From a virus: a stretch of DNA of 64,000 nt. Position numbers and translations under genes: made by a program. Positions 4,532 to 58,556 of this stretch are shown piece by piece. How positions within the stretch are numbered: the first letter of the stretch is position 1; every line of letters begins with the position of its first letter. The stretch covers positions 1-64,000 of IMG/VR virus record IMGVR_UViG_3300036790_000178; one strand, written 5' to 3'. The notes under the pieces are model-generated. The model saw only the letters and a list, made by a program, of their open reading frames with translations. It searched no databases and was not told where the DNA came from.

Positions 4532-5044
4532 ATGGGTATTGCGCAATGGCACGACTTCGTCGAAGTCCCCGGACTTGATCGGGAGAGAAAGCGGCGCTTC
4601 GAATGGGCGCCTTCACGCTCTCTGCTGGCCGCCATACGGTCCTACCAGCGACACCGCGCCAGACGAAACCCCGTGAGCCTCATCGCCTCAAAGCTCGCGG
4701 TATTGCGTCACCGGTTCTGGTCCGTCGTGACAGGTGCCGACATCCCGCTCAATTCGCACATCGGCGCCGGGTTACTGCTCCCGCACCCGAACGGCATCGT
4801 GATTCACGATCTCGCCGTGATCGGTGCGAACTGCCTCATCTTCCAGCAGGTGACCATCGGAACGGCATCGGGTCCCGGATGTCCGGTGATCGGCGATCAC
4901 GTCGATATCGGAGCGGGAGCCAAGATCCTGGGCGGGGTGAAAATCGGCGCCTACGCCAAGATCGGCGCGAATGCGGTCGTCATATCGGATGTGCCGGCTT
5001 ACGCGACTGCGGTGGGAATTCCGGCGCGGATCGTCAGAAGTTGA
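4532..5044 (+). CDS. Hexapeptide-repeat acetyltransferase, serine-acetyltransferase-like
   Basis: A 170-residue left-handed beta-helix transferase. Imperfect hexapeptides run from about residue 70 ([18 protein letters not shown]) to the end, with [15 protein letters not shown] and [20 protein letters not shown]. The region around HPNG/IVIHD matches the serine O-acetyltransferase group of phage and polysaccharide clusters. It probably transfers acetyl from acetyl-CoA to a sugar or small acceptor in the cytoplasm. A GTG at 4481 could extend it by 17 residues and would overlap the previous gene by 20 bases; ATG 4532 is chosen because the added part is basic and uncharacteristic. Its 3' end overlaps the convergent gene by 11 bases. 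Confidence 0.8.
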
Positions 5045-50340: not shown

Positions 50341-51238
50341 CCTCCTCGTCGGGCGGTTCCCAGCTGCGCTCGGGCTCGGTCGTCTTGCCATGGCCATTCG
50401 GTGTCGCGAGTCGCGCCGCATCGGCCCGCCGGCCACCGACAATCCCCAGCGCATAGCCGAATCCCTTGCCGCGGCCGACGGCTTCCTTCGCGGCCTGAGC
50501 GAACTCGCCGACCTCAGCGCCCTGCTCGAGGAGCTTGAGCAACGTCGCGTGGCTCGGGTTCACGGCCATGAGCCCTTCGGCTCGCATGGCGATGCAGGCG
50601 GCAGTGGCGCGAGTGGGCCCGGGTGCCGGATCAGGATCGCCGGGCGATTCGCCGGGAGGTCTACTTTCGTCTCGTTCCGCTCTCGCTTTCTCACCCCGTT
50701 CCGGAGGGGTCGCGCCCGCACGCGCGTTCTGAGCGAGTGCGTCTTCGCACGAGTCTGGATCTGGTTTCTGGATCTGGACTCTGGATTCTGGCTCTGGAGC
50801 TGGAGAGCCATTTTTCCCGCTATCATTACCCCATCGTTTTTTGTGGGGTACCCTATGGCCAACCCCATCAGATTCGCCATAGCCGTCGCCATGGCCAGCG
50901 CTATTCTTTCCCCATCGCTTTTCGGCGCCCCTACGCCCTGATTCTGATGCCTCCGCCGAGATCGCCTCCCACTTCGCAATTTCATCATCCGCCCGCGGGT
51001 TGTGCCTGAGGCCGTCCGGCGCGATAGGGAAGAATTCATCTGCAACCGCTGAGACTGCCGCCTGCTCAAGCTTCGATGTCGCCCGGCAGAGCCGCCACAA
51101 CGCCTCCCTGCTCTCAGGCAGCGGCTTTCGACGTGAGTAGTAGTGATCGAGCAGGACCGTGTAAGCGCCATGCTCGGCCAGCGACAGGTGGCTCGTGTCC
51201 CGCTGGTAGTCGCCCATGTAGCGCTTGTAGTAATCCAT
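50321..51238 (-). CDS. DUF1376 replication initiation-type protein
   Basis: A 305-residue protein. The N-terminal DUF1376 domain is clear: MDYYKRYMGDYQRDTSHLSL, AEHGAYTVLLDHYYSRRKPL, with WRLCRATSKLEQAAVSAVAD. Residues about 110-210 are low-complexity and probably a linker. The C-terminal part (ACIAMRAEGLMAVNPSHATL; GEFAQAAKEAVGRGKGFGYA; LGIVGG) resembles the ends of phage replication proteins. DUF1376 proteins accompany helicase loaders and are proposed to act at replication origins. An origin may lie inside this gene, but no repeats were established. Confidence 0.75.
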   Translation of the reverse strand: MDYYKRYMGDYQRDTSHLSLAEHGAYTVLLDHYYSRRKPLPESREALWRLCRATSKLEQAAVSAVADEFFPIAPDGLRHNPRADDEIAKWEAISAEASESGRRGAEKRWGKNSAGHGDGYGESDGVGHRVPHKKRWGNDSGKNGSPAPEPESRVQIQKPDPDSCEDALAQNARAGATPPERGEKARAERDESRPPGESPGDPDPAPGPTRATAACIAMRAEGLMAVNPSHATLLKLLEQGAEVGEFAQAAKEAVGRGKGFGYALGIVGGRRADAARLATPNGHGKTTEPERSWEPPDEEDDRAQA

Positions 51239-51924
51239 CAGCCCCGACTCCCGTCCGTCGCCATCCGCACGATCTCCTCGACGTCCGCGAGCTCCTGCTG
51301 AACCATGGTCACCATTGCGAGCAGCGTCTGAAGCGTCATCGCCTTGGAGCGCTGCAGCTCGACCAGGCGGACGATGAGGTCCGGTGAGAACGTGATGCGC
51401 CGGGGCTCGATGTCTATTTTCGGGACCTCGACTGGAGGTGCCGGCGCTTGGACGGGCACGACGATCGGCGCCGACGGCCCGGTATGCTCCACGCGCTCCC
51501 GACCGCTCCCCACCGGACGACCAGCCCTCGCGACGATGCCCAACTTGGCGCGGGCAGCAGAGAGGTGTTGCGAGACGGAATTCACGGAAGAGCCGAGTCG
51601 TTGCGCGACCTCGGCATGCGTGAGGCCGCTCTTAATCAGCTCGAAAACCTGCGATTCGCGCGGCGTCAGACCGTTACTTACGACGAGTTGGCGGTGTGGT
51701 GTTAATGGTGCCGGCGCCTGCGGGACAGGCTGCCGCAGTGGATGCTCGTGCCCGTTGATCCTCTGGTAGCACCCAAGCTCGAAGCTCACGGCGCCGCGTT
51801 TCAGCAGCATGCTGAGTTCGCCATCGATGCTCGCCGCCTGATCGCCTTTGAGCAGCCCGTAGATCGCGTTTCGTGGTACTGCCTTCTCGCCCAGCGCCTC
51901 TTGGATGCGTTCCTGAAGGGTCAT
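51238..51924 (-). CDS. GerE/LuxR-type helix-turn-helix regulator
   Basis: A 228-residue protein. Residues 85-130 are a LuxR/GerE-type DNA-binding domain: GLTPRESQVFELIKSGLTHA, EVAQRLGSSVNSVSQHLSAA, then RAKLGI. The N-terminal 60 residues look like a winged or helical module (ERIQEALGEKAVPRNAIYGL), and the C-terminus has a helix (DLIVRLVELQRSKAMTLQTL) suited to oligomerisation. No response-regulator receiver or autoinducer domain is present. ATG 51924 overlaps the upstream small gene (ATGA). It may regulate late transcription. Confidence 0.75.
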   Translation of the reverse strand: MTLQERIQEALGEKAVPRNAIYGLLKGDQAASIDGELSMLLKRGAVSFELGCYQRINGHEHPLRQPVPQAPAPLTPHRQLVVSNGLTPRESQVFELIKSGLTHAEVAQRLGSSVNSVSQHLSAARAKLGIVARAGRPVGSGRERVEHTGPSAPIVVPVQAPAPPVEVPKIDIEPRRITFSPDLIVRLVELQRSKAMTLQTLLAMVTMVQQELADVEEIVRMATDGSRG

Positions 51925-52040
51925 CCGTGCTGGTCCAGGTGGGCTGAAATCCAAACCACGCCGACGACCAAGATCGTCATGATCACCGCGCACATCACGC
52001 GCTGGAAGAGCGGCAGATCCGATTCCTTGCGCTCGCTCAT
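51921..52040 (-). CDS. Single-pass membrane microprotein, 39 aa
   Basis: ATG 52040 to TGA at 51921-51923, overlapping both neighbours by 4 bases in ATGA style. The sequence is MSERKESDLPLFQRVMCAVI followed by MTILVVGVVWISAHLDQHG, giving one transmembrane helix. Overlaps at both ends make it a convincing gene despite its size. It could be a small holin-like, exclusion or regulatory membrane peptide. Confidence 0.65.
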   Translation of the reverse strand: MSERKESDLPLFQRVMCAVIMTILVVGVVWISAHLDQHG

Positions 52041-52408
52041 CGCGCCGCCACCGCAATCAGCGCGACAGACATCGCGAGCCCCCAGATGACGACGATGACG
52101 AGCGCAAATAGCGCCGCCGTCAGGACGTCCCAGAAGAGCTCCTGCAGGTGATCGAATAAAATACCCGCGCGCGCCGGAAGTGCGGAATGAGTGCGCTCGG
52201 GGTGCGCCAGGCGCTTACCGTCGGGGGTTGGTGACGGGGCGTCGGATTGGCGCGAAACTGGTTTGGATAGAGAAAGAGCCGAGGCGACTGGCATCGCGCT
52301 CGGCCCTGAAGTCGCAGGCGTAGGGTGAAATGACGCGCCCGCGGGGACAGAGCCGGCAGCAAGCGGCGTGCCGCGTGCCGGGAACACAAGAATATTAGCC
52401 CCACCCAT
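52037..52408 (-). CDS. C-terminally anchored membrane protein, 123 aa
   Basis: The first 80 residues are polar, Pro/Ser/Ala-rich and probably disordered. The C-terminus (FWDVLTAALFALVIVVIWGL, then AMSVALIAVAAR) is one transmembrane helix. It overlaps the next gene by 4 bases. The true start could be a later ATG (MPVASALSLSKPV), since the N-terminal composition is weak. Function unknown; the pair of small membrane proteins here is notable. Confidence 0.5.
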   Translation of the reverse strand: MGGANILVFPARGTPLAAGSVPAGASFHPTPATSGPSAMPVASALSLSKPVSRQSDAPSPTPDGKRLAHPERTHSALPARAGILFDHLQELFWDVLTAALFALVIVVIWGLAMSVALIAVAAR

Positions 52409-52496: not shown

Positions 52497-52901
52497 CTAG
52501 CGGCCTCCCCGCTTGCCCGGCGCGCCGACGCCCGCTGCCGCGAGCTTCCCAGGCAGCGCCGAGAGCATCTGATGGACCTCTGTTAGCGCGTGGTCGCGCA
52601 TCGCGCATTCATCGCCCAGGTACTTGGCGACGAGGTAGTAAATCCAGGTCTTGTCCCCGGTCACCCGCGTGTACTTCTCCGCCTCATCGAGCCCGAACTT
52701 GCGCGTTGGGTCGTCCGAGAGCGCAACCGAGAGATTGCCGGGCGATACGTCGAGGTCGGACGCGATCTTCCCGAGACCTCGCTTATAGACGCCCGCAGCG
52801 ACGCACTCACGCGCCCACCGGTAGACATCCGGCAGGCTCGGATCCAACGCGAGCGTCATCTGTCTGTGAGAATCAGTGAGAAGTCGTGATGACATCTGCA
52901 A
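52497..52901 (-). CDS. CII-like phage regulatory protein
   Basis: A 134-residue protein. The N-terminal helices YRWARECVAAGVYKRGLGKI and ASDLDVSPGNLSVALSDDPT form a helix-turn-helix of the type in phage CII/CP76 regulators; the C-terminal half (VTGDKTWIYYLVAKYLGDEC, AMRDHALTEVHQMLSALPGK) is helical for oligomerisation. It is the first gene after the Cro-like gene on the leftward transcript, the CII position. ATG 52895 is an alternative start. Probably activates or modulates early or repressor promoters. Confidence 0.7.
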   Translation of the reverse strand: MQMSSRLLTDSHRQMTLALDPSLPDVYRWARECVAAGVYKRGLGKIASDLDVSPGNLSVALSDDPTRKFGLDEAEKYTRVTGDKTWIYYLVAKYLGDECAMRDHALTEVHQMLSALPGKLAAAGVGAPGKRGGR

Positions 52902-52957: not shown

Positions 52958-53239
52958 TCACGCTCGATCGCGACAGGCGCGCCGTTCCGGCTGACGAGTG
53001 CTCGATTTGAGCGCCGTCAACCTGGCGTGCAAAGCCTGGACGCGACTGACCGCAGGGTCGGGTGTCTTCCCGTCCTCAACATCGCGGACGAATCGCTTCA
53101 GCCATTCATAGGGAACGTCGGGCTCGGAAGCGATGGACCGGACGGAGAGGTCGCCGTTCTTGTCGCGGACGCTCTTGAGCAGTCCAATGGTGTCGTCGAG
53201 GAGGTTCACGTGCCCAATAATGGGGAATCTTTTCCTCAT
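52958..53239 (-). CDS. Cro-like small regulator
   Basis: A reading frame of 93 codons from ATG 53239, divergent from the repressor gene. The segment DLSVRSIASEPDVPYEWLKR (residues 30-49), then FVRDVEDGKTPDPAVSRVQA fits a small helix-turn-helix. However, the best leftward promoter has its -10 at 53217-53222 and would start RNA near 53210, so the first ten codons may not be transcribed from it; GTG 53209 (MNLLDDTIGLL) would then be the start on a nearly leaderless message. Position next to the repressor suggests a Cro role. Confidence 0.6.
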   Translation of the reverse strand: MRKRFPIIGHVNLLDDTIGLLKSVRDKNGDLSVRSIASEPDVPYEWLKRFVRDVEDGKTPDPAVSRVQALHARLTALKSSTRQPERRACRDRA

Positions 53240-53246
53240 TTGTCAA
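53217..53246 (-). promoter_or_regulatory. Leftward early promoter (PL-like)
   Basis: On the minus strand, TTGACA (53246-53241, exact consensus), 18-base spacer and CATTAT (53222-53217). A GGGGAA-N4-TTCC palindrome fills the spacer and touches the -10. This promoter would drive the Cro-like gene and the long leftward transcript. Confidence 0.65.
53222..53237. promoter_or_regulatory. Operator OL1: GGGGAA-N4-TTCCTC
   Basis: Sixteen bases, GGGGAATCTTTTCCTC, with one perfect half-site and one half matching four of six positions. It lies between the -35 and -10 of the leftward promoter. A second degenerate copy ending TTCCCC is at 53245-53260 and overlaps the -35 hexamer. Same geometry as the rightward operators. 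Confidence 0.6.
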
Positions 53247-53272
53247 GGAGCACATTCCCCAAGCGAGTCCGC

Positions 53273-53764
53273 ATGCTCACTCGCATGCCTCGATCGCGCG
53301 AATCAAGCCGACTAGCAAAGCTGCTCGGGATGAATCTCGACAAGCTGATGAGCTATCGCAAGCTATCCGGACACGGCATCGCGACGTCCGCGAAGCGCAT
53401 CGGGCATTCGATTGATCCGAAGACCGTGAACAACGCCCGTAATGCCGCAAAAGAAGGCCACGGCAAGGGCGATCTCACGCTCTCAACGCTCGAAGGCATT
53501 TCGGCTGGCGCGTCCGTCGACGCCTGGCAGCTGCTCGCTCCGCGCTTCGATCCGCAACGCCTGCCGGAGCTACGCAAGCGCTGGGGAGAATCGACGCGAG
53601 CGACACCCAGCGACGGCTATCTCGATGAACTCATCGGCCTCTGGTCGAAGATGAAGCCCGGGCGCCGCGCGACCCTATTGCACCTCGCCCAAGAATGGTC
53701 TTCAGAAAGTGGGGAGGCGGCCGATCCCCCGGACCCTCCACGCGCATCGCAGAGGACCCGCTGA
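53273..53764 (+). CDS. CI-like phage repressor without peptidase domain
   Basis: A 163-residue protein from ATG 53273. The N-terminal half is a helix-turn-helix domain (SRLAKLLGMNLDKLMSYRKL, HSIDPKTVNNARNAAKEG, DLTLSTLEGISAGASVDAWQ). The rest is a short helical region (YLDELIGLWSKMKPGRRATL) rather than the LexA-like S24 peptidase of lambda CI, so RecA-driven self-cleavage is not expected; induction must work another way. It is flanked by operator palindromes on both sides. No strong ribosome binding site is seen before ATG 53273; ATG 53288 is an alternative. Confidence 0.7.
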   Translation: MLTRMPRSRESSRLAKLLGMNLDKLMSYRKLSGHGIATSAKRIGHSIDPKTVNNARNAAKEGHGKGDLTLSTLEGISAGASVDAWQLLAPRFDPQRLPELRKRWGESTRATPSDGYLDELIGLWSKMKPGRRATLLHLAQEWSSESGEAADPPDPPRASQRTR

Positions 53765-53961
53765 CGGATACTGCGGTGCTAAGAATGCTAGAAAAGTTCA
53801 GTAAAAAACAAAACAACAACTGACATGAATCCCGGCGCCAGCGACGATCTGACGCCCCTCCCATGATATTGCCGAGAGCGAACGCGTTGCTCCGGCGGCA
53901 GGCTTCTTTCCCCGTTCCGATTCGGGCCCGATAAGCCTCGATTGCTGCCTTCGTGCGGCGT
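53765..53961. other. Intergenic stretch after the repressor gene
   Basis: About 200 bases before the first rightward operator. It contains an A-rich run (AGTAAAAAACAAAACAACAA near 53800) just downstream of the repressor stop. I see no convincing gene or T-tailed hairpin. A weak TTTCCCC half-site lies near 53908. Confidence 0.5.
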
Positions 53962-53977
53962 GGGGAATATATTCCTT
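53962..53977. promoter_or_regulatory. Operator OR1: GGGGAATATATTCCTT
   Basis: Palindrome with arms GGGGAA and TTCCTT around TATA. It overlaps the first two bases of the -35 of the rightward promoter. Its centre is 33 bases (about three helical turns) from the next operator, so bound dimers would face the same side of the DNA. Confidence 0.65.
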
Positions 53978-54004
53978 GACTTCGCGATCTACGTGGGGAA
54001 TACT
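53976..54004 (+). promoter_or_regulatory. Rightward early promoter (PR-like)
   Basis: TTGACT at 53976-53981, exactly 17 bases, AATACT at 53999-54004. Each hexamer has one or two mismatches to consensus. Both are covered by operators, so the repressor should switch it off. RNA would start near 54011 and the first gene has its GGAGGT site soon after. Confidence 0.7.
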
Positions 54005-54010
54005 TTCCCC
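53995..54010. promoter_or_regulatory. Operator OR2: GGGGAATACTTTCCCC
   Basis: A perfect six-base inverted repeat, GGGGAA and TTCCCC, separated by TACT. It contains the whole -10 hexamer of the rightward promoter. This is the best match to the family consensus found in the window and probably the strongest repressor site. Confidence 0.7.
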
Positions 54011-54028: not shown

Positions 54029-54319
54029 ATGCAGTCCCAAGCCGAACAGGCCGCCAGAAGCCCGGCCAGCGTCGATACCGAGACATTCCGTCGCGGCTCG
54101 CAGATCTTCTCGATCTTCGGACAGATCGAAGCGGTGGCCGCTGATCTGATGGTCCAGCGCGGCCTCGGTCAACGGATCGAGGTGAGCGACTTCCCTGATG
54201 CCGCCACCTGCCCCGACGTGCATGTGAATGAGCGCGGCGAGCAGGCGCGCTTCGCCCTTCTGCTGCCACTCCAGCACGTCCAGCAGTTCGAGAACCTGAT
54301 CCGGGAGTTGCGCTCATGA
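54029..54319 (+). CDS. First gene of rightward early operon, 96 aa
   Basis: ATG 54029 is preferred because GGAGGT ends three bases before it; ATG 54011 is too close to the transcription start. The protein is helical at first (MQSQAEQAARSPASVDTETF; SQIFSIFGQIEAVAADLMVQ) and then mixed (CPDVHVNERGEQARFALLLP; LQHVQQFENLIREL). No known family. As the first gene under the rightward promoter it may be an early regulator or anti-host protein. It overlaps the next gene by 4 bases. Confidence 0.6.
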   Translation: MQSQAEQAARSPASVDTETFRRGSQIFSIFGQIEAVAADLMVQRGLGQRIEVSDFPDAATCPDVHVNERGEQARFALLLPLQHVQQFENLIRELRS

Positions 54320-55284: not shown

Positions 55285-55583
55285 GCGCGCCGCATACGCC
55301 GGGGCCGTGGGAGCCAAAGCGGATAGACCGCCATCACTGGGTAATTGGCGATGGGGTCGCGCGTACACAGGTTCCCCCAGAAGGCGGCGAGGAAATGATC
55401 GAGGCCAATGCTCGCCTGATAGCCGCCGCTCCCGACCTTCTGGAACTCGCCCACCAGATGGCGCGGGAATGCTGCGACTGCAATTACGGCGGGGGTGCGA
55501 CGGGCCTCGGCTCTGAAGGCGCGCCGTGCGAATCGTGCGGCCACATCCGCGCGCTCATCGAGAAGGCCGAGGGTCGGGCATGA
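55281..55583 (+). CDS. Widespread phage protein 'HTPGPW...ANARLIAAAPDLL', 100 aa
   Basis: The start HTPGPWEPKRIDRHHWVIGD and the motif EANARLIAAAPDLLELAHQM identify a very common small phage family whose function is unknown. A C-terminal Cys cluster follows (CCDCNYGGG and CESCGHIRALIEKAE), which may bind zinc. ATG 55281 is used because it overlaps the previous stop (ATGA). Usually encoded in early operons of temperate phages. Confidence 0.75.
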   Translation: MSAPHTPGPWEPKRIDRHHWVIGDGVARTQVPPEGGEEMIEANARLIAAAPDLLELAHQMARECCDCNYGGGATGLGSEGAPCESCGHIRALIEKAEGRA

Positions 55584-55762
55584 GACGTTTGCCGCCCGAC
55601 CAGTTGTTTCGAATCGGCCGCGAGGGCCTCGAAGACATCAGCGACGCCACTCTCGAAGTGAGAGTCACGGAAAGCGAGCGAGCTACTTTGCGCCGGCAGG
55701 CCGACGAAGGCTACCAAGCCGCAACTGTCGACGAAATGCTTCAACTTCCGGAGTCCACATGA
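55580..55762 (+). CDS. Small early protein, 60 aa
   Basis: ATG 55580 overlaps the previous stop by 4 bases and the stop overlaps the next ATG. The sequence MRRLPPDQLFRIGREGLEDI, ATLEVRVTESERATLRRQAD suggests a short strand then a helical region, somewhat like ribbon-helix-helix or MetJ/Arc-type repressors. DNA-binding is possible but not established. Confidence 0.55.
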   Translation: MRRLPPDQLFRIGREGLEDISDATLEVRVTESERATLRRQADEGYQAATVDEMLQLPEST

Positions 55763-56343
55763 ACGAGTTCAAAGACGGCTGGATTGAGGACGAGAACGGC
55801 AACCGCTGTTCCGTCGACTATTTTGGCTCCGAGGAGGCGGCGCGCGAGGCGCTGGCATCGCTCAAGAATTGCAAGCGATGTATCAACTGCTCGGGCTGCT
55901 CGGACTGCTCGGACTGCTCGGGCTGCTCGGGCTGCTCGGACTGCTCGGGCTGCTCGCGCTGCTCGCATACCGCCTTTCTCTACGATAAGAAAGACCTGCA
56001 TGCGGACCCGGCGGCGGCCGTCCGCGGCTCGCCGCCCATACCACGCATCGAGAGCATTCACCAGGCGGTATACGCCGCGGTATCACAACCCAACGCGCTG
56101 GACATGGGTTCGTGGCATGTATGCGATACGACGCACTGCCGCGCGGGATGGGTGATCGCACTGGCGGGCGAGGCCGGAAAGGCGCTAGAGGACTTCCACA
56201 ACACTCCTTTGGCGGCGCAACTGATCTATCGAGAGAGCGGCTACGAAATCAACCCGTGCCGGTTCTACGACACGAACGAGGCGGCCATGGAGGATATGCG
56301 GCGCCTGGCGGATGGGAGCGCGATGCCCGAGGCCCAGCCATGA
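55759..56343 (+). CDS. (Cys-x-x)n repeat protein with phage C-terminal domain
   Basis: A 194-residue protein from ATG 55759. Residues 1-35 are acidic. Residues about 37-70 form a run in which every third residue is Cys: CKRCIN, then nine triplets CSG/CSD/CSR/CSH. The DNA is nine near-identical 9-base units (55888-55968). From about residue 95 a conserved-looking domain begins: IESIHQAVYAAVSQPNALDM, GSWHVCDTTHCRAGWVIALA, ALEDFHNTPLAAQLIYRESG. The triplet spacing recalls a tight helical or ladder-like metal- or disulphide-bearing structure. No known family covers the Cys part. Confidence 0.65.
   Translation: MNEFKDGWIEDENGNRCSVDYFGSEEAAREALASLKNCKRCINCSGCSDCSDCSGCSGCSDCSGCSRCSHTAFLYDKKDLHADPAAAVRGSPPIPRIESIHQAVYAAVSQPNALDMGSWHVCDTTHCRAGWVIALAGEAGKALEDFHNTPLAAQLIYRESGYEINPCRFYDTNEAAMEDMRRLADGSAMPEAQP
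55888..55968 (+). repeat. Nine tandem 9-bp units (TGCTCGGRC-type)
   Basis: Nine head-to-tail 9-base units TGCTCGGGC, TGCTCGGAC, TGCTCGCGC or TGCTCGCAT in frame, each coding Cys-Ser-x. The GGGC/GGAC alternation suggests expansion by slippage. Copy number may vary between strains. Confidence 0.85.
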
Positions 56344-57430: not shown

Positions 57431-57669
57431 TTTCGACCTGGTGGGCCAGCCTCTCCTGGTCTCACGCCACATTTGTGCTCGTCGCGATCCTGCTCGCGAT
57501 CGTCGTGCTCTGGTACGCGTTCGCCTCGCTCATCGAGTCGGCGACGAACGACCCGCGGCCGCGCGCGTACCCGCTCGCCGACTACTCCGCCGCATATCAG
57601 CGGCAACGGGACTGGCTCGGTGACAGATGGCTCCTGGCTCGGCCGGTCAACCGGAGGTTGGCGCGATGA
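57427..57669 (+). CDS. Single-pass membrane protein, 80 aa
   Basis: ATG 57427 overlaps the previous stop. MISTWWASLSWSHATFVLVA, ILLAIVVLWYAFASLIESAT give one transmembrane helix near residues 14-36, then a polar tail rich in Arg, Tyr and Leu (YPLADYSAAYQRQRDWLGDR). The ATG of the YqaJ gene overlaps its stop. Function unknown. Confidence 0.6.
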   Translation: MISTWWASLSWSHATFVLVAILLAIVVLWYAFASLIESATNDPRPRAYPLADYSAAYQRQRDWLGDRWLLARPVNRRLAR

Positions 57670-58556
57670 GTCTCACGACAGAACAGGTCGCGGCGCGCGC
57701 CAACGGTATTGGCGGGAGCGACGCCGCCGCCGCCCTCGGCCTCTCCAAGCGCAAGACGGTGCGTCAGCTCTATCACGAGAAGCGGGGGGAAATTCCACCC
57801 GATGTCTTCGACGCCGAAGTTATCTGGTGGGGCAATGCGCTCGAGCCGGTTGTGCGGCAGAAGTACGCCGAGAAAACCGGGCATACCGTGCTGCTGCCGA
57901 AAGAGACGCTCTGGCATCCGGCGCACGCCTTCATGTGTGCGCACATCGACGGCTACGTCGACGCTCCGCGCCGCGGATACGAGGGTAAGACCGCATTCCT
58001 CTCAACCGGCTGGGGCGAGGAAGGCACAGACCAGGTTCCTTCTGACTGTCTGATGCAGGTCCACCATTACATGATCGTCACGGACCTGCCCGTGTTCGAC
58101 GTCGCGTGCCTCATCGGGCGCCGGTTTGCCTATTACGAAGTGCCGGCTGATCCCGAACTCCATCAGATGATCATCGAGGGCGAGCGAGAGTTCGCCCGGC
58201 GCGTGAAGGATGGCGATCCGCCGCCGCTCGATTACGAGCATCCGACCGCGCTCGATGTCATGAAGAGGTTGCACCGCGGCACGAACGGCGTGCGCCTCAT
58301 CGCGTCCGAGGGAGCCTGCGGGTGGCGTCGCAAGATCGAGCGCGCGCAGCGCATCGAGAAAGCGGCGAAGGCCCGCATCGATGCCTACAAGAGCCGGCTC
58401 CTCGAGGAGATGGGAGATGCCGCGCTCCTCGCCTTCCCCGACGGCAAATGTTACCGCCGCCAGGTCACCCCGCGCGCCGCCTACTCCGTCGATGCGACCG
58501 AGTATGTAGACGCCAGGTTCATCAACGATCCGCTGATCAAAGGTAAAAAGCGATGA
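57666..58556 (+). CDS. YqaJ-type phage exonuclease
   Basis: A 296-residue protein of the YqaJ/lambda exonuclease (PD-(D/E)XK) family. The N-terminus IGGSDAAAALGLSKRKTVRQ with WGNALEPVVRQKYAEKTGH and the catalytic region CAHIDGYVDAPRRGYEGKTA (D in HID and E-x-K in EGK) are present, with a Gln/His helix VPSDCLMQVHHYMIVTD after it. It digests one strand of double-stranded DNA to leave 3' overhangs for annealing. It overlaps the next gene by 4 bases, as expected for an exonuclease/annealing pair. Confidence 0.85.
   Translation: MSLTTEQVAARANGIGGSDAAAALGLSKRKTVRQLYHEKRGEIPPDVFDAEVIWWGNALEPVVRQKYAEKTGHTVLLPKETLWHPAHAFMCAHIDGYVDAPRRGYEGKTAFLSTGWGEEGTDQVPSDCLMQVHHYMIVTDLPVFDVACLIGRRFAYYEVPADPELHQMIIEGEREFARRVKDGDPPPLDYEHPTALDVMKRLHRGTNGVRLIASEGACGWRRKIERAQRIEKAAKARIDAYKSRLLEEMGDAALLAFPDGKCYRRQVTPRAAYSVDATEYVDARFINDPLIKGKKR

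Follow-up and report, generated by a model that had tools for sequence, protein, structure and literature searches.

Does this region of an uncultured virus encode a repressor/Cro switch of the lambda kind, and are the palindromes on its early promoters the operators of that switch? The window that we analysed, a stretch of 64,000 nucleotides, is most of a 72,342-base IMG/VR virus record, and its layout around 53209–53764 resembles that of the lambda immunity region. As in a lambda-type CI/Cro region, a repressor gene and a Cro-like gene diverge with operators in between, and the same operators recur past cI, on the second early promoter. Comparative analysis of the sequence leads us to propose, with high confidence, that the locus is a CI/Cro switch of lambda-like design, belonging to the DicA/Gifsy kind, and that its four sites are the OR and OL operators.

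Gene order, proposed operators and promoters

Leftward from 53209 lie a Cro-like gene (52958–53209, minus strand), a gene for a CII-like regulator (52497–52901, minus strand; 134 aa), a LuxR/sigma-region-4-like gene and a gene for a DUF1376 replication protein; the CII-like product, second in this operon, matched PHROG 101 (E=4.9e-6), and its Pfam match to Phage_CP76 stayed below the cut-off. Rightward, the repressor gene (53285–53764) is followed by a second, PL-type early operon, which begins with a 96-aa gene without a family match (54029–54319, plus strand) and extends to a RecE-like exonuclease (57627–58556) and conserved partners. A tyrosine integrase is encoded near the record's far end (L001:10846–11988), and we therefore consider the phage temperate. 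Two products of these operons are recorded here as separate observations: a 272-aa protein with a sigma-70 region 4 or LuxR-type helix-turn-helix (HTH; Pfam E=1e-9) in the leftward operon (51238–52056), which occupies the place of the lambda replication genes, and an ORF of the early rightward operon (55495–56343) with consecutive Cys-Ser-Gly/Cys-Ser-Asp repeats (CSGCSDCSDCSGCSGCSDCSGCSRCS).

The four palindromes were all found where the preliminary description had placed them. Measured against GGGGAA-N4-TTCCCC, OR1 (53222–53237, GGGGAATCTTTTCCTC) has one mismatch, OR2 (53245–53260, AAGGAGCACATTCCCC) is asymmetric with three, OL2 (53962–53977, GGGGAATATATTCCTT) has two and OL1 (53995–54010, GGGGAATACTTTCCCC) has none; the perfect arms once ascribed to both right-hand sites are thus a property of OL1 but not of OL2, whose right arm reads TTCCTT because it enters the neighbouring −35 element (TTCC-TTGACT). 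OR1 and OR2 are 23 bp apart and the OL sites exactly 33 bp, the latter as first reported, and the difference between the two spacings is one helical turn.

Both promoters also stood as originally drawn: a PR-type promoter running leftward from 53246 to 53217 (minus strand; TTGACA-18-CATTAT), predicted to drive cro, and a PL-type promoter running rightward (53976–54004, plus strand; TTGACT-17-AATACT). The claim that the sites cover the −35 and −10 elements held as well, with OR2 (CTCC-TTGACA) and OL2 each overlapping a −35, OL1 containing the PL −10, and OR1 occupying the PR spacer and touching its −10. A matrix scan of the record gave no OR3 site near the window's cI start, so that OR is not tripartite here, and the best PRM candidates in the window match 6–7 of 12 consensus bases, none of them convincingly.

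Recurrence of the sites in related phages

We scanned OL-type and OR-type DNA patterns separately over 2.9 million viral contigs (IMG/VR). The OL-pair pattern matched nine stretches, eight of them genuine; OR sites, which had played no part in that search, were present beside cro in all eight, and the OR-pair pattern alone returned exactly the same eight contigs. A divergent cI adjoins cro in seven of them. When the OL pattern was run against 84,980 bacterial and archaeal genomes (257 billion bases), 16 matches were obtained, one of which also bears OR: a Gammaproteobacteria MAG whose prophage has the same layout and is the ninth relative. The other 15 matches, together with the viral match L012, lack OR sites and were discarded as chance.

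The layout common to these loci consists of divergent cro and cI, OR1 and OR2 at a distance of exactly 23 bp, and two OL sites spaced at 32–33 bp on the second promoter; the positions of OR1, OL2 and OL1 are kept in all nine relatives, and PR has TTGACA and an 18-bp spacer in all ten loci. OR2 conforms to AAGGA[AG]C[AT]C[AT]TTCC throughout (10/10), so the site at 53245, earlier called degenerate, is a conserved asymmetric OR2. Seven of the nine relatives also have an OR3, their OR sites being 22–23 bp apart; in the MAG prophage OR3 is largely missing, as it is in the window, and the CI proteins of these two are longer than the others. This recurrence in nine further phages and prophages supports the reading of the sites as probable repressor operators on both early promoters, as had been suggested at the outset.

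The MAG host's family yielded one further Cro relative, without operators, no further OR pattern was found among the 369 genomes of its class, and a search of plasmids for Cro relatives returned none. Achromobacter phage CF418P1, a weak tblastn match of CI, was rejected, the motif not being enriched there, as were those named lytic phages in which a distant homologue of Cro occurs, since they have divergent early promoters and no GGGGAA-N4-TTCCCC sites. Distant homologues of the window's Cro were observed in lytic phages of Stenotrophomonas, Pseudomonas, Variovorax, Microcystis, Shewanella and Sphingomonas (L029–L034), where they stand directly before the primase gene wherever it is annotated, with no repressor gene in the annotated stretches.

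Counting the 16-mer over the genome, the check first put forward, bore out the special status of the sites only in part. Its abundance was mildly unusual at ≤3 mismatches (43 vs. 27.6 ± 4.9 expected) and showed no excess at ≤2 mismatches (3 vs. 4 for the reversed control); the four sites, on the other hand, are the four best genome-wide by a weight matrix built solely from the sites of the nine other phages and prophages, with the window left out. By that matrix they take ranks 1–4 among 72,327 record positions (OL1, OL2, OR1 and OR2, in that order), and the score drops from 14.5 to 9.4 bits at the next position. A matrix from the relatives' OR sites alone again gave ranks 1–4, and one from their OL sites alone gave ranks 1, 2, 3 and 5. 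In 200 Markov genomes no 800-bp stretch held as many as two such sites, and 33 of the 34 good sites in eight viral records fell inside the two operator regions (manual count). The significance of the sites thus lies in their quality, clustering and conservation, and raw 16-mer counting is not decisive.

That they are chance palindromes of a GC-rich phage genome would suit the mild over-representation, but the independent-matrix ranks and the Markov genomes speak against it, and positions and spacing identical in nine other loci already refute it, which leaves this explanation practically nil. We also give very little credence to the idea that the inverted repeats, which do lie near start codons, work in RNA as hairpins or terminators instead of as DNA operators: transcription is predicted to start downstream of OR2, OL2 and most of OR1, the arms run into −35/−10 elements, the inter-site spacing is fixed at 23 and 32–33 bp, and a 4-bp spacer would be typical of HTH dimer sites.

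Repressor, Cro-like protein and sister operator classes

Counted from the first base of OR2, cI starts 38–40 bases away in every locus that has the gene, and on this conserved position the window's cI (plus strand) most likely starts at the ATG at 53285, giving a protein of 159 aa in place of the 163 aa first assigned. It is an XRE-type HTH protein with a short C-terminal helical domain. Searched alone, the window's CI gave no significant Pfam or PHROG match; an insertion follows its recognition helix, and it was recognised only through its relatives, seven of the nine family members matching HTH_3 and HTH_31. A profile search with the CI family found XRE structures. The model of the window's CI is all-helical, with the HTH at residues 29–57 and an N-terminal domain of pLDDT about 94, and the fold search returned mostly XRE HTH proteins, none at E ≤ 0.001. 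D-x-K-T is kept without exception in the recognition helix of the nine CI proteins, the window's included.

The view that this CI-like repressor lacks an S24 domain was upheld by the all-helical model and by searches of nine of the family's virus records: S24 was absent from all of them (the same search being positive in 10 of 14 control genomes), as was the M78 peptidase (PF06114; positive in 7 of 14 control genomes). The window accordingly has neither the S24 repressor of a lambda-type region nor the M78 (ImmA/IrrE) protein of ImmR/DdrO-type repressors, and it does have what marks the DicA/Gifsy type, namely a short XRE repressor without a cleavable domain, a divergent Cro and operators on both sides.

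The Cro-like protein (83 aa) is 40–57% identical to the Cro proteins of the nine relatives, and all ten members matched PHROG 9425 ('transcriptional repressor'); a fold search with the 10-sequence alignment (pLDDT 76) gave no usable match. Wherever the gene is present, cro starts 35–39 bases from OR2 on the side opposite cI, which places the window's start at the GTG at 53209. The start codon lies 6–10 nt from the PR −10 across the loci (7 nt in the window), and from this proximity we predict that the cro mRNA is leaderless. Several relatives have an AAGAAT element within OR3 that ends 5 nt upstream of the cI start, and their cI mRNA is likewise predicted from sequence to be leaderless.

Searches based on Cro led to sister classes in which the outer operator bases differ while the AA-N4-TT core and the layout are kept. 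The first returned phages L038–L040, whose corresponding sites are GGTAA-N4-TTACC (L038:2400–2960; L039:2435–2964). The second returned L066, with four AGCAA-N4-TTGCT sites vs. 0.12 expected, at the OR and OL places and with both pairs 23 bp apart; the pattern of this class (TAGCAA-N4-TTGCTA) matched 48 viral stretches (L067–L114). An identical OR2, AAGCAACACTTTGCTA, is found in 20 of the 32 AGC-class loci that have a CI relative, and its core AACACTTT is common to several GGG-class OR2 sites. The recognition helix differs between classes: D-x-K-T in the GGG class (9/9), S/A-x-K-T in the GGT class (two distinct proteins) and x-Q-T/R-T/S/A in the AGC class (25/32 by a simple motif). A Pfam S24 domain was detected in three of the eight AGC-class repressors tested and in none of the other five.

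The AGC class includes a named phage, Bordetella phage vB_BaM-IFTN4 (OM293953, L115). Like the window, it has paired sites beside a divergent XRE gene (3940/3963) and again farther along (7144/7168), and it shares the OR2 core with several GGG-class phages; it differs in the outer operator bases and in the recognition helix, and several repressors of its class carry S24. As a further observation, four AGC-class phages with long, S24-type repressors (L074, L075, L080 and L083) have an extra site, e.g. TAGCAAGACATTGCAC, at the repressor start, 14 bp from OR2 and so closer than the 22–23 bp of GGG-class OR3.

All of these phages may belong to one wide lambda-like family in which the layout, the asymmetric OR2 and AA-N4-TT stay constant, immunity specificity shifts through the outer bases (GGG, GGT, AGC) and a few helix residues, and S24 is gained or lost without a change of operator class; on this broader proposal we are evenly divided.

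The proposed switch and its known counterparts

Under the CI/Cro reading, OR1 and OR2 would control the leftward promoter for cro, the cII-like gene and the replication genes, and OL1 and OL2 the rightward promoter for the recombination operon. In a lysogen, dimers of the 159-aa XRE repressor would sit on GGGGAA-N4-TTCCCC and hold both promoters off; in lytic growth, the Cro-like protein would probably occupy the same sites in competition with CI. Since S24 is missing, induction should proceed by something besides RecA-stimulated self-cleavage, and the forecast that the switch would not respond to RecA in the usual way is retained as a prediction on that ground. By analogy with the Gifsy and DicA repressors, induction would most likely involve an antirepressor.

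The closest known design, on our best reading, is that of DicA/DicC and Gifsy, a switch of the lambda type whose repressor is not cleavable. The DicA/DicC-dicBF locus of the Qin prophage of E. coli encodes a 135-aa repressor without a cleavage site and a divergent Cro-like DicC, has operators both between the repressor and cro genes and at the promoter beyond the repressor gene, is described with three operators resembling the ones at lambda PR and PL, and has been reported to undergo antirepressor induction (PMC10448788). The window resembles it in its short non-cleavable repressor, divergent Cro-like gene and operators on both sides, a likeness of design, and differs in having two operators per promoter vs. 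the three described for that locus. GfoR, GfhR and GtgR are likewise non-cleaved repressors of lambdoid switches, for which antirepressor induction is proven and is LexA-controlled in Gifsy-1 and Gifsy-3 (PMC3121763); here, in contrast, no antirepressor was found among ten further phage proteins, covering part of the early genes, that were scanned with PHROGs.

With lambda itself the window shares the divergence of cI and cro, strong promoters PR and PL, a weak PRM, a cII-like second gene, and replication on one arm with recombination on the other. The three OR sites of the seven relatives also recall lambda, where the sites are about 23–24 bp apart. In contrast to lambda, the window's repressor lacks S24 and OR3 is absent, and cro (in the relatives cI too) is predicted to be leaderless, whereas in lambda only the cI mRNA is. 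Nor does lambda's way of activating PRM, from about −42, suit this arrangement: in the relatives only about 30 bp separate the centre of OR2 from the cI start, so that CI at OR2 would be on the PRM −35, and we therefore do not predict positive autoregulation of the lambda type.

An improbable alternative, though the strongest of those considered, is that the operators serve mainly Cro or a host regulator, that the 159-aa protein is a degenerate repressor and that no stable lysogens form. It draws on the insert beside the recognition helix, the window CI's want of a Pfam match of its own, the loss of OR3 in the window and the example of L005, which shows that sites can outlast cI; yet the window's CI keeps D-x-K-T intact and its N-terminal domain is modelled confidently, the phage encodes an integrase, and the CI helix shifts with the operator across sister phages. 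A host regulator is made unlikely by the near absence of the paired OL pattern from the bacterial and archaeal genomes. L005 itself retains cro, OR1, OR2, OL2 and OL1 (4719–4876) with OR2 and OL2 separated by only 86 bp; no cI was found within its 24.7-kb record, and it is possibly a natural virulent derivative.

In the open-access literature covered, we found no description of the operator sequence, its family distribution or the linked change of operator and helix, and all three appear to be undescribed. On the CI/Cro reading of the locus, comparative genomics defines an operator class among uncultured temperate phages, and the matrix of that class detects the switch in raw sequence. The occurrence of one operator class with and without S24 repressors allows SOS-inducible and non-SOS induction to be compared directly, and the matched operator and helix changes of the sister classes make it testable how a repressor, Cro and several operators shift specificity together while lysogeny is kept. 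If the proposal is true, the family would be a natural series on the evolution of heteroimmunity with the switch kept intact.
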